Below are positions 19,605 through 25,197 of a stretch of DNA of 33,301 nt, piece by piece. Numbering within the stretch: the first letter of the stretch is position 1; each line of letters begins with the position of its first letter. Source of the DNA: Akkermansiaceae bacterium (GTDB lineage Bacteria > Verrucomicrobiota > Verrucomicrobiia > Verrucomicrobiales > Akkermansiaceae); contig CAIRGO010000026.1 in the NCBI GenBank assembly GCA_903878115.1, forward strand, positions 1 to 33,301. The letters are read 5' to 3'. The notes beneath the pieces are model-generated. The model searched no databases. It was not told the DNA's origin and was given only the letters and a program-made list of their open reading frames with translations. Made by a program: the position numbers and the translations under genes.

Positions 19605-20258
19605 TTACGGCTTTTTCGGTGCTCCTATCGGTGGCGCGGGGCGCTCAGTTTCAGCGGCCGGAGCTGGCAACTCAGCTGGAGCACTAGGTTTTTTGTCCGC
19701 CGCGGCAGGTGGCAACTCGGGAATGCTTGGTGGTTCGATGGGTGGCGCAGGTGTGCCATTGCCCAAATCGGATGGAGGCAATGGTGATGCAGCAGGTTGA
19801 AGGTCAGCTGGCAGTCCGCCTCCAGGCAAAGGCAGCGGTAGGCCGGTATCGCCACCGACGGGTGGGTAGACTTGGATCTCTCCACTGGGCAGCCCATTGG
19901 TTGATTTTCCATCAGTCACCATTACCGAAGAAACATAGCCGACTTGTCCGTTATCGAGTTCTACTTTGACAAATGAACCGTCAACCTTCACCACCCGCAT
20001 GGAAGTGCCAGCGGCTAAGAGTTGTTCGGCTTCTGCATTACCTGTGGGGCGGTTGCTAAAAAATGCAGTCGAGTTAGAAACTGCGGTGACGTATTGTCCA
20101 GGTTGCAAGCCCGTCATGGCAGAAACATCTGGGGTTTTGTTAGCGGCACCAGGAGCGGTGAGTGGATCAAAATCTCCGCTAAGTGGCTTATTAAAACCAC
20201 CGCAATGGTTTAGAAATAACGACGAAATAACAAGTGGAGGAAGGAAAAACCATTTCAT
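19605..20258 (-). CDS. SH3-domain lipoprotein with proline-rich tail
   Basis: A 217-residue protein from ATG 20258, chosen because MKWFFLPPLVISSLFLNHC is a lipoprotein leader; the frame upstream to 20354 is hydrophilic and unlikely. The lipobox LNHC is atypical because Asn and His sit where small residues are usual. After the Cys comes GDFDPLTAPG. Residues of about 54-120 form a bacterial SH3 domain (GQYVTAVSNSTAFFS, LLAAGTSMRVVKV, VKVELDNGQVGYVSS). The last 90 residues are Pro/Ala-rich with poly-Pro segments, suited to span the periplasm or cell wall. A role in peptidoglycan or envelope binding is inferred. Confidence 0.85.
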   Translation of the reverse strand: MKWFFLPPLVISSLFLNHCGGFNKPLSGDFDPLTAPGAANKTPDVSAMTGLQPGQYVTAVSNSTAFFSNRPTGNAEAEQLLAAGTSMRVVKVDGSFVKVELDNGQVGYVSSVMVTDGKSTNGLPSGEIQVYPPVGGDTGLPLPLPGGGLPADLQPAASPLPPSDLGNGTPAPPIEPPSIPELPPAAADKKPSAPAELPAPAAETERPAPPIGAPKKP

Positions 20259-20367
20259 AACGGCGAAATCTAGTCTTGGATATGATGATTCGTCAATATT
20301 TTTCCTTTGTCGATTCTGTGTGAAGGCAGCAAGCCGAAAAAAAATCTCCGCCAACCAATCTTACCGC

Positions 20368-20403: not shown

Positions 20404-22305
20404 ATGCGAATTTTCGCCTTAACCGGCGGCATCGCCAGTGGCAAGTCCACTGTCTGTCGATTGCTGCGCGAACTATGCCCTACCATAACACTCTTTGATT
20501 GTGATGCAGCGACCCGTCGTCTGCATAGCGATCCAAATGCAGTGGAACAATGTCGTGCCGTTTTTGGAGATGAGGCAGTCTTTGAACCGAAGAGCTGTCT
20601 CGACCGAGAATTTTTAAGAAAAAAGGTCTTTGCTGATGAGGGCTTGCGCAAACAACTGGAGGATATTTTACATCCATTGATTCGCGTAGAATGCATGCAA
20701 GCGTTAGAGCGGGCTACGGAGCAGGGGACATCAAGTGCGTTCATTGCTGATGTGCCATTGCTGTTTGAAAATAATTTTGATCTGGGTCATGAAAAATCAT
20801 TGTTGGTAGCGTCCAGTCGTGAAACGCAAGTCAAGCGACTGCGAGCGCGCACACGATTTGACGATGATATGATCAATTCGATCATCGCCGCACAGATGCC
20901 AGTTGAAGAAAAAATCTTACGCGCGGACGTTGTGTTTTGGAATGAGGGTCCGCTAACCTCGCTGCGCACGCAGTTGGCTAGATTTCTGGAATCCCAGGGT
21001 GTAATCACTACTGATACGCTGCTGATTAATGCCAAACCGGTCCTTTTGCCGCCGGCGATTGATATCAATGAATTTCGCCAAAAAACGCTCGCGGAATTGC
21101 ACGATATGGCGGATGCCGTGCCGAGTTTGCAAGTGGCTCATGCAACAAAAAGTCAACTTGTTTACGAGTTGCTGCAATTTTATTCACGCGAGGGAGTAGA
21201 ACTTACCTGCGAAGGAGTCTTAGAATCTACGAAGGAAAAATTCGCCATGCTGCGTGATCCAGCGCGGAGTTTTCGCAATGCGCAGGATGACATTCATGTC
21301 CCTAACAATTTGCTGAATCAATACGGCTTACAGACGGGTCACCGCGTCAAACTGCGCGCTCGCGCCTCTCGGGAAAAAGATAAATTTATCAGCAGTTACG
21401 AGATTTTAGAAATTGAAGGTATCGCGGCTGCGGAATGGGTAACGCCTAATGATTTTGAAAAATTAACACCGCTATTTCCTGACCGGCGAGTTTATTTAGA
21501 AGGGGAAGGTGCGGATTTCCTCAGTGTGCGCCTTGTTGACCTTATTGCTCCGCTCGGCATGGGGCAGCGGGCCTTGATCGTAGCACCACCACGTGGCGGA
21601 AAGACGATTTTGTTAAAACAAATTGCAAAAGCGATTCGTACGAATCATCCGAAAGTGGAGTTGATTGTATTACTATTGGATGAACGGCCGGAAGAAGTCA
21701 CTGATTTTGAAGAAACCGTGGGGTGCACGGTGTATGCATCGACATTTGATGAAACGCCAAAGCGCCATGCGCAGGTAGCAGATATTGTGTTAGATCGTGC
21801 CAAGCGTTTGGTGGAAACGGGTAAAGATGTGATTTTATTGCTCGACTCGCTGACTCGTCTGGCTCGTGGGCACAACTCCGCAGGGCAAGCCGGCCCGATC
21901 GGCTCCGGCGGCATTTCGCCCATGGCGTTGCAAAAATCGCGGAAATTTTTCGGTGCAGCGCGTAATGTAGAGGAAGGTGGCTCACTGACCATTCTTGCCA
22001 CCGCCCTGATCGAGACGGAATCGCGCATGGATGATGTAATTTTTGAGGAGTTCAAGGGCACCGGCAATATGGAAATCCGCCTCGACCGTGAGCTGTCGGA
22101 GCGCAGAATTTATCCAGCGATCCATATTCCGCAATCAGGCACCCGCAATGACGAGCGGCTTTATCATCCTGATGAATTTTCCAGAATTTTAGAAATTCGT
22201 CGACAATTAGCGCAACTTCCCTACGGAGAAGCGATTGAAGTATTGATGAAAAATCTCAAAACCACCCAGAACAACGCCGAATTGCTCCTTCGCGGAATCC
22301 GGTAA
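20404..22305 (+). CDS. coaE-rho: CoaE-Rho fusion: dephospho-CoA kinase and terminator Rho
   Basis: One uninterrupted 633-residue frame. Residues 1-199 are a complete dephospho-CoA kinase (last step of CoA synthesis): P-loop GGIASGKST (8-16), FDCDAATRRLH, ADVPLLFE and a lid with RLRARTRFDD. From about residue 219 to the end (415 residues, close to the 419 of E. coli Rho) is a full Rho helicase: N-terminal helices (LAELHDMA, ATKSQLVYELLQFY), RNA-binding cold-shock fold (DDIHVPNNLLNQYGLQTGH), Walker A APPRGGKT (394-401), Walker B VILLLDSLTRLAR, and R-loop region FKGTGNMEIRLDR. The linker (200-218) has no plausible internal ATG start. No Shine-Dalgarno sequence; a possible promoter ends 8 bases before ATG. 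Rho terminates transcription as a hexamer, so six kinase domains would ring it. Confidence 0.95.
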   Translation: MRIFALTGGIASGKSTVCRLLRELCPTITLFDCDAATRRLHSDPNAVEQCRAVFGDEAVFEPKSCLDREFLRKKVFADEGLRKQLEDILHPLIRVECMQALERATEQGTSSAFIADVPLLFENNFDLGHEKSLLVASSRETQVKRLRARTRFDDDMINSIIAAQMPVEEKILRADVVFWNEGPLTSLRTQLARFLESQGVITTDTLLINAKPVLLPPAIDINEFRQKTLAELHDMADAVPSLQVAHATKSQLVYELLQFYSREGVELTCEGVLESTKEKFAMLRDPARSFRNAQDDIHVPNNLLNQYGLQTGHRVKLRARASREKDKFISSYEILEIEGIAAAEWVTPNDFEKLTPLFPDRRVYLEGEGADFLSVRLVDLIAPLGMGQRALIVAPPRGGKTILLKQIAKAIRTNHPKVELIVLLLDERPEEVTDFEETVGCTVYASTFDETPKRHAQVADIVLDRAKRLVETGKDVILLLDSLTRLARGHNSAGQAGPIGSGGISPMALQKSRKFFGAARNVEEGGSLTILATALIETESRMDDVIFEEFKGTGNMEIRLDRELSERRIYPAIHIPQSGTRNDERLYHPDEFSRILEIRRQLAQLPYGEAIEVLMKNLKTTQNNAELLLRGIR

Positions 22306-24126: not shown

Positions 24127-25197
24127 ATGCCGATCATTGTAAGTGACTCAACTAGCCTAAATGAACTCTTGGAACGCATTTCTCCGATTGCTCCAGTCTG
24201 CGCCATTGATACAGAGGCTGATAGCCTTCATCGCTACAAGGAATCACTTTGCCTTATTCAATTGTCTGCTGGTGGTGAAAACGTTTTGATTGATCCTCTG
24301 GCGATCAGTGATATCGCGCCTTTTGGTAAATACTTAAATCGCTCTGAAGTCTGGATGCACGGTGCGGACTATGATATGACAATGATCAAGCGCGAGTTCG
24401 GCACACTGCCCCCTAAAGTTTGGGATACGCAAATTGGTGCGCGGTTACTGGGGTTGCGAAAATTTGGCCTATCAGATTTAGTCGAGCACTGGTTCGGTGT
24501 TGTGTTGTTAAAAACTTCGCAAAAAGCTGATTGGGGGAGACGCCCCATGACTGACAAAATGACGGAATACGCCATCAATGATGTCGTTTACTTGCTGCCA
24601 ATGGCAGAGTGCATCGTCGAGGAATTGTTAGATAAAGGGCGCTATGATTGGTTTGTGCAAAGCTGTGAAGCGGCGCGGAAGAAAGTGTTAGAGCGCGATG
24701 ACAATAAAGATGATCTTTGGCGCATCAACGGCAGTGGGCGTTTACAATCGCGCGCCCTCGCTTATTTGAAATCGCTATGGGAATGGCGCGACGCAGAGGC
24801 GGCCTCGTGGGACAAACCATCGTTCATGGTTGTGAACAACAAGGAGATGCTAGTGTGGGCCGAAACTCTGGGCAGTGGTGAGACCTTAGATCTTCCCCGG
24901 CATTTGCAACGACCAGATCGCTTGCGTCGGTTTGAGAAATACATAGCAGAAGCGAAGGCACTGAGCGACGAAGAGTGCCCACATAAAATCAAAGTTCCGC
25001 GTCGCAAAAAAGATGCCGCGTTTGAAAAGGAAGTAGATAAAATTATCCAGAAGCGCGACCAAGCTTCTTCAGTTCTCGACATCGACCCATCGCTTGTGAT
25101 CGCTCGCAGTGTGGCTGAATCCATCGCGGCAGGAGAAGTATCACCCTCCGATGTACTGCTGCCATGGCAACGTGAGCAATTGCAAATCGAGGGCTAA
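24127..25197 (+). CDS. rnd: Ribonuclease D
   Basis: A 356-residue 3'-5' exoribonuclease that trims tRNA and other stable-RNA 3' ends. The DEDDy catalytic set is present: AIDTEADS (Asp28, Glu30), HGADYDMTMI, and YAINDVVYLLPM (Tyr and Asp). An HRDC domain follows (about residues 205-290, LAYLKSLWEWRDAEAASWD). E. coli RNase D is 375 residues with two HRDC-like domains; here the second is reduced to a basic tail (KIKVPRRKKDAAFEKEVDK). Since neither tRNA gene in the window encodes CCA, 3' trimming before CCA addition is a likely job. No Shine-Dalgarno sequence. The zinc-ribbon gene follows after 36 bases. Confidence 0.93.
   Translation: MPIIVSDSTSLNELLERISPIAPVCAIDTEADSLHRYKESLCLIQLSAGGENVLIDPLAISDIAPFGKYLNRSEVWMHGADYDMTMIKREFGTLPPKVWDTQIGARLLGLRKFGLSDLVEHWFGVVLLKTSQKADWGRRPMTDKMTEYAINDVVYLLPMAECIVEELLDKGRYDWFVQSCEAARKKVLERDDNKDDLWRINGSGRLQSRALAYLKSLWEWRDAEAASWDKPSFMVVNNKEMLVWAETLGSGETLDLPRHLQRPDRLRRFEKYIAEAKALSDEECPHKIKVPRRKKDAAFEKEVDKIIQKRDQASSVLDIDPSLVIARSVAESIAAGEVSPSDVLLPWQREQLQIEG

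Follow-up and report, generated by a model that had tools for sequence, protein, structure and literature searches.

Dephospho-CoA kinase and Rho in a single reading frame: a coaE-rho fusion gene in an Akkermansiaceae-like family

Introduction

Why would a dephospho-CoA kinase (CoaE) and the Rho factor, two proteins that are normally separate and essential, be encoded by one gene? The question is raised by a locus of an Akkermansiaceae bacterium, found in a stretch of 33,301 nucleotides that is named the window hereafter. A preliminary description of this DNA reported that a complete CoaE runs into a complete Rho, and speculated on a physical coupling of CoA synthesis to transcription termination. 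The explanation that we hold to be probable is that of a genuine bifunctional fusion protein, born in an Akkermansiaceae-like family from the loss of the stop between the neighbouring genes coaE and rho, and both halves of which are functional. A CoaE-Rho fusion was not found described in the titles and abstracts listed by our searches of open-access papers, and a literature search on transposon essentiality in Akkermansia returned nothing. For the Akkermansiaceae MUL2 locus, a figure legend of PMC13174399 gives dephospho-CoA kinase and Rho as two separate names.

The fused gene and its modules

The gene and its parts, all on the forward strand, are the following.

20404-22305, forward strand: coaE-rho fusion gene, 633 amino acids, ATG start, stop at 22303-22305
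20410-20952, forward strand: CoaE (dephospho-CoA kinase) module, residues 3-183 (PF01121, 135 bits)
20425-20451, forward strand: CoaE P-loop GGIASGKST, residues 8-16 (sequence, and conservation in 36 fused proteins)
20977-21060, forward strand: linker, residues 192-219 (old rho start position, without ATG in the genus; low model confidence at 201-211)
21061-22302, forward strand: Rho module, residues 220-633, with N-terminal part, RNA-binding domain and ATPase (NF006886, PDB chains, fold match)
21583-21606, forward strand: Rho Walker A, residues 394-401 (sequence; all 44 fused proteins compared carry K400 and T401)

The translation of 20404-22305 is free of stops over its 633 residues, and the one frame translated from the opposite strand contains many. 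The first part of the protein is recognized as CoaE by PF01121 of Pfam (residues 3-183, 135 bits for a cut-off of 27) and by TIGR00152 of NCBIfam (residues 3-192, 123 bits for a cut-off of 65.6), and a search among solved structures retrieves CoaE chains for it (best E-value 1.2e-19). The second part matches the Rho RNA-binding domain PF07497 (residues 270-339, 43 bits, cut-off 27), PF00006 of Pfam (residues 375-578) and the Rho model NF006886 (residues 220-628, 488 bits, cut-off 315), and retrieves Rho chains of the PDB with a best E-value of 4.5e-100. With the Rho model TIGR00767, the fusion protein scores 479 bits, below the cut-off of 509. These profile matches over both domains confirm the single frame with a complete CoaE and a complete Rho, and the positions first given for the P-loop and the Walker A motif are correct. 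The linker, initially put at 19 residues, comprises about 28 (192-219) when the domain borders are considered.

The AlphaFold model, calculated for a monomer with an alignment of the 36 fused proteins only, has a mean pLDDT of 80.4 and a pTM of 0.59. The CoaE module is confidently predicted, pLDDT drops to about 55 at residues 201-210, and the Rho module is mostly confident up to about residue 530 and weak beyond. The best 50 Foldseek matches of this model are all Rho, none being CoaE. A scan of promoter-like and terminator-like motifs was uninformative (4 promoter-like for 2.6 expected, 1 terminator-like for 3.2 expected).

Distribution of the fused state

It had been suggested that relatives may share the fusion, and this proved to be the case for at least 139 of the 260 genomes of the Akkermansiaceae-like family. 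Among these 139, 124 display a single alignment across both domains, as read by hand, and 15 were resolved by their ORFs; the former include one alignment ending at 603 (G558), and the latter one gene with a frameshift inside CoaE (G543) and one cut by a contig end (G554). Two genomes with an open frame of 691 (G603 and G607) were considered, but stops separate their genes and they are split. In the window's genus, 9 of 10 genomes are fused, and the intact frame at all 10 loci of these 9 genomes excludes a chance open frame. Neither the fusion nor any CoaE was found in the tenth genome (G674, 92% complete), which is therefore uninformative either way. Genome G675 possesses two different fused copies (L305 and L307), 81% and 76% identical to that of the window, reflecting either a duplication or a mixed bin.

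Outside the family, none of 120 loci is fused (50 from the order, 25 from the class or phylum, and 45 from other phyla), and a phylum-wide fusion is rejected. Among the matches listed for 387 genomes of the phylum, those that are full-length and in a single frame all belong to the window's family. Six of 80 named loci, some of which represent the same organism as a coded locus, are fused; one is Roseibacillus ishigakijimensis, and the other five are metagenome assemblies under the names Akkermansia or Akkermansiaceae.

As many of the genomes are draft metagenome assemblies, and as the frameshifted G543 stands among those counted as fused, an assembly or sequencing artefact had to be envisaged. 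It is refuted for practical purposes, with a chance close to nil: the fusion is present in four single-contig genomes (G251, G319, G254 and G547) and in a named strain, R. ishigakijimensis KCTC 12986, and the 10 loci of the genus agree with each other. The initial reservation that resequencing might reveal a frameshift does not hold.

An old gene pair as the probable source of the fusion

The coaE-rho neighbourhood is old and is apparently the source of the fusion. Adjacency was defined as coaE lying directly upstream of rho, on the same strand and within 1 kb. From 80 genomes of the order outside the family, we set aside 8 for which a CoaE but no full-length Rho row was listed, and 2 for which no CoaE was listed; coaE is directly upstream of rho in 69 of the other 70, the sole exception (G450) having its Rho at a contig edge. 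This is a fairer count than that of the 50 order loci, of which 30 come from the best Rho matches and 20 were picked with the CoaE coordinates visible. In the rest of the phylum, with loci chosen from Rho matches and the coaE position unseen, the arrangement is found in 22 of 25; of the exceptions, L147 ends near a contig edge, while L109 and L133 have more than 2 kb upstream without coaE. In the unfused named loci, coaE adjoins rho in 26 of 27, a count that is biased since these loci were found partly via CoaE patterns, and that omits L166 and L170, in which Rho is cut by contig ends; nearly all of them belong to Verrucomicrobiota, Kiritimatiellota or Lentisphaerota, and one is unplaced. In other phyla, adjacency is observed in 7 of 45 loci: three Omnitrophota (one of which, L198, has a partial CoaE match), three Planctomycetota and one Vermiphilus assembly.

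The gene order in Chlamydia is, we presume, rho-coaE-polA. An excerpt of PMC8762339 mentions STRING links of Rho with coaE, sohB and polA in that genus. In a Gemmataceae locus, polA is the next gene upstream of coaE-rho, while an Omnitrophota locus has one other gene in between, and a secretin gene is upstream of the pair in Roseibacillus, Prosthecobacter and one Verrucomicrobia assembly (L183, L175, L153, L207 and L168 for these contexts). In the window, the upstream neighbour (19605-20354, reverse strand), which has a weak SH3 match below the cut-off, is divergent; the fusion gene is therefore outside the polA or secretin context of its relatives. Further downstream, 24127-25197 (forward strand) encodes a ribonuclease D-like protein, with a 3'-5' exonuclease domain and an HRDC match just below the cut-off.

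Among the loci listed, the split junctions are often tight, with either an ATGA overlap or a stop immediately followed by ATG. In at least 11 split loci (L014, L062, L123, L129, L140, L150, L156, L159, L160, L162 and L187), coaE and rho are in the same frame with a single stop in between; these are candidates for read-through or for a recent change of state.

Repeated transitions between split and fused genes

The fused state came or went several times within the family. A tree of 83 rows, calculated on the joined CoaE and Rho domains with the linker omitted (36 fused and 47 split rows, including 10 outgroup rows), implies at least 10 changes between the fused and split states, 6 of which are forced by starred, well-supported branches; support is SH-aLRT from a quick search, and long rows are present, L258 being the longest. 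One single change of state is thereby rejected. An earlier tree of 81 rows had yielded only 3 changes, as it sampled the fused genera with few of their split members; its two long branches, L164 and L171, were dropped from the second tree. The number of changes cannot separate gain from loss, one fusion followed by fissions fitting equally well as repeated fusion.

The junctions differ between groups. In a first one, the split genes overlap by ATGA and the fused genes exhibit one more base before the same ATG. In a second one, the fused genes are devoid of about 17 bases that contain the stop. In the Akkermansia group, neither stop nor start is present in the fused genes, and their N-terminal extension is mostly missing.

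Open and sealed fusions

Two types of fusion exist, an "open" type that keeps the old rho start codon and a "sealed" type that has lost it. Linkers range from 22 to 130 residues across the fused proteins; in the window's genus, 9 of 10 loci have a linker of 28 codons. The open type gathers the genera coded g3, g4, g225 and g227 and their kin, leaving out L258 (g224), which has ATGs at codons 1 and 14; the old rho ATG is kept in 32 of 32 loci, at linker codon 8-11, amid columns that vary. Not one of the 10 loci of the window's genus has an ATG at linker codons 7-12, and hence the window gene is of the sealed type and the old route to a start of Rho alone is lost; a TTG at linker codon 23 is a candidate non-ATG internal start.

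To note, the gene starts of this organism exhibit almost no Shine-Dalgarno pairing: for 20 starts of the window, pairing with the anti-Shine-Dalgarno has a mean of -0.36 and a median of 0.4 kcal/mol, and 1 of 20 is at -4 or below.

The persistence of the ATG in all open-type loci despite a variable linker is consistent with the making of two products, in which internal initiation or cleavage would give Rho alone and the full-length protein would be minor or an intermediate. The sequence upstream of the junction ATGs points in the same direction: its pairing with the anti-Shine-Dalgarno is weak (23 of the 32 open-type loci scored, mean 0.77 kcal/mol), like that of the 20 window starts; the means for the rho starts of split genes are 0.82 kcal/mol for overlapping ones (n=24) and 0.21 for others (n=9). 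This context differs from that of 187 other in-frame ATGs of the same genes (mean -3.32 kcal/mol), with a Mann-Whitney p of about 1e-9 that overstates the case, the compared rows being related. Conversely, retention of the ATG may just reflect a recent fusion, and the weak-pairing pattern is absent from the candidate coaE starts (mean -2.88 kcal/mol, n=25, a biased measure as the best of several codons was taken for each). Furthermore, the homologous site of 19 fused loci of the sealed type (window's genus, Akkermansia and Roseibacillus types) displays an ordinary coding context (mean -2.48 kcal/mol), and the window's genus does not keep the junction ATG at all. A two-product scheme is therefore considered rather unlikely, and a genuine bifunctional protein remains our preferred explanation.

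Conservation of the two halves

Within the 36 fused proteins, G8, G13 and K14 of the CoaE P-loop are invariant and G9, A11, S15 and T16 nearly so, while the polar residues D34, R72, H90, R145 and Q164 are conserved and D32 nearly always; the roles of these residues in the fused proteins are assumed here. The Rho half was compared over 171 hand-picked rows. K400, T401, E427 and D481 are found in 44 of 44 fused proteins, and R581 in all 43 with data; we take these positions to fulfil the roles of Walker A, catalytic glutamate, Walker B aspartate and arginine finger, and the RNA contacts to be those of E. coli Rho.

At the RNA-contact positions, F62, R66 and D78 are kept as compared to E. coli Rho, whereas L58 is changed to T, F64 to M, Y80 to H, E108 to D, Y110 to F and K283 to P, together with the conservative changes T286 to S and K326 to R. 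As these positions differ from E. coli, the termination activity of the fusion is uncertain. Three of the changes, F64 to M, E108 to D and K283 to P, are equally common in split relatives (36, 35 and 28 of 37, respectively), and are thus no consequence of the fusion; Y80 to H is commoner in fused proteins (18 of 44) than in split ones (7 of 37).

Wherever relatives allow a measurement, both halves are found to be under purifying selection. NG86 omega values are 0.10-0.39 for CoaE and 0.015-0.039 for Rho in the 3 of 11 pairs with dS below 1 in both halves (L026/L027, L244/L245 and L106/L234). For most pairs, those of the window's genus included, dS is saturated or above 1, and selection in this genus is therefore deduced from its relatives. 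With intact ATPase residues and low omega, both halves look functional, which suggests that an active kinase is tethered to a Rho ring that is active as well.

Gene copies and the second Rho

The fusion is the only CoaE found in its own genome (331 contigs, 95.3% complete), the search for a second coaE elsewhere in these contigs being negative. Across the order, exactly one CoaE is found in 110 of 112 genomes and none in the other 2. The situation of Rho is different. The preliminary description had raised the possibility of stand-alone copies of both genes: a second, separate Rho does exist as a diverged paralogue, whereas no second coaE was found. This paralogue, RhoB, is located on contig C1 of the same genome (L002:1489-3222, reverse strand), is 577 amino acids long, shows 45% identity, and has an N-terminus rich in Lys/Ala and in Gln/Asn. 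In the tree, the RhoB proteins group apart, in a clade of their own with a long branch. In the 20 RhoB rows, a number reached once L292, a wrong stretch without Rho, is set aside, R353 is replaced by Y or F and Y110 by G in all 20, and E108 is kept in only 2. In each of the four single-contig fused genomes, exactly two proteins pass the Rho cut-off, namely the fusion and RhoB. In total, 10 of 15 fused genomes checked have RhoB above the cut-off besides the fusion, and five fused drafts do not (G196, 98% complete; G497, 93%; G548, 87%; G565, 94%; G673, 82%).

The presence of RhoB in these 10 genomes and the unusual RNA-contact residues of the fused Rho could suggest that RhoB is the main terminator, and that the fused Rho half mainly serves as an oligomerising or RNA-tethering scaffold for CoaE. 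Such a role appears highly improbable: the fused Rho keeps its ATPase residues and is under the strong constraint given by its omega values, its F64, E108 and K283 changes occur just as often in split relatives, the copy that has diverged more is RhoB, with its R353 change and its long branch, and RhoB does not reach the cut-off in five fused drafts.

A probable path from gene pair to bifunctional protein

The bifunctional fusion may be pictured as follows. The old neighbours coaE and rho would have been tightly packed and often overlapping, and the loss of the stop between them inside the Akkermansiaceae-like family would have yielded one polypeptide. Its CoaE module would make CoA as usual, and its Rho module would form the usual ring and terminate transcription, six CoaE modules hanging by flexible tethers from the N-terminal side of the ring. 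Fusion would set the ratio of the two at 1:1 and have them translated together, which is not far from the ancestral overlapping arrangement, and probably has little regulatory meaning beyond this. The dosage control proposed initially holds in this weak sense only, coaE and rho being already close neighbours and fusion fixing their ratio. The ATP/CoA sensing or the processing after translation suggested at the same time are not supported, the sequence analysis providing no apparent pointer to either.

Anything past fixed stoichiometry is conjecture, although it would be somewhat surprising if two essential proteins that are normally separate had long been kept fused to no use. CoA or dephospho-CoA bound by CoaE might alter Rho, or Rho activity might alter CoA synthesis. 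The old neighbourhood and the fused state of several clades suggest that joint expression is useful, and the nearly fixed linker length of the genus would fit as well; nevertheless, fused and split states interchange among close relatives, and linkers vary widely between fused proteins and are of low confidence in the AlphaFold model, making such functional coupling unlikely.

A bolder proposal, a long shot, is that, in the sealed fusions, the termination machinery has come to include CoA synthesis as an obligatory component, six CoaE per Rho ring travelling with RNA polymerase. If true, dephospho-CoA could be consumed where transcripts start and kept out of 5' RNA ends or, alternatively, the CoA pool could tune termination; the coaE-rho pair, conserved in the phylum and outside it, would in that case represent the link in an older and looser form. 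Dephospho-CoA has been argued to be too scarce for co-transcriptional capping, according to an excerpt of PMC10761072, which weakens this proposal.

Significance and comparison with known systems

Two unrelated housekeeping proteins, a metabolic enzyme and a ring-shaped transcription motor, are thus joined in at least half of the family genomes searched, and living relatives still display the steps from separate genes to overlapping genes and to one protein. With split genes, open fusions and sealed fusions side by side, it becomes directly testable whether gene order, coupled translation and fusion of the proteins serve joint dosage or real cross-talk. If the Rho half works, Rho tolerates a folded enzyme on every subunit.

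As compared to stand-alone CoaE (PF01121, TIGR00152; PDB IDs 1uf9, 1vhl and others), the fusion has the same complete domain, P-loop and conserved residues, but continues into an entire Rho at its C-terminus, and the genome has yielded no other coaE. CoaE is likewise part of a longer protein in PRK03333 (a 395-position model), 6n39 (415 amino acids) and the bifunctional CoA synthase 2f6r; compared by name, their extra parts aside, none of these is called a CoaE-Rho fusion. With respect to Rho (NF006886; PDB IDs 1pv4 and 8hsj), the checked ATPase residues, the N-terminal part and the RNA-binding and motor domains are the same, while the N-terminus is joined to CoaE, the positions F64, Y80, E108 and K283 differ, and the score is below the TIGR00767 cut-off. 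Rho proteins with added sequence are known: the Rho of Bacteroides thetaiotaomicron has a disordered region, as stated in an excerpt of PMC10284900, and in the present genome it is RhoB that has such an addition, its N-terminus rich in Lys/Ala and Gln/Asn. In the fusion, the addition is a folded metabolic enzyme.
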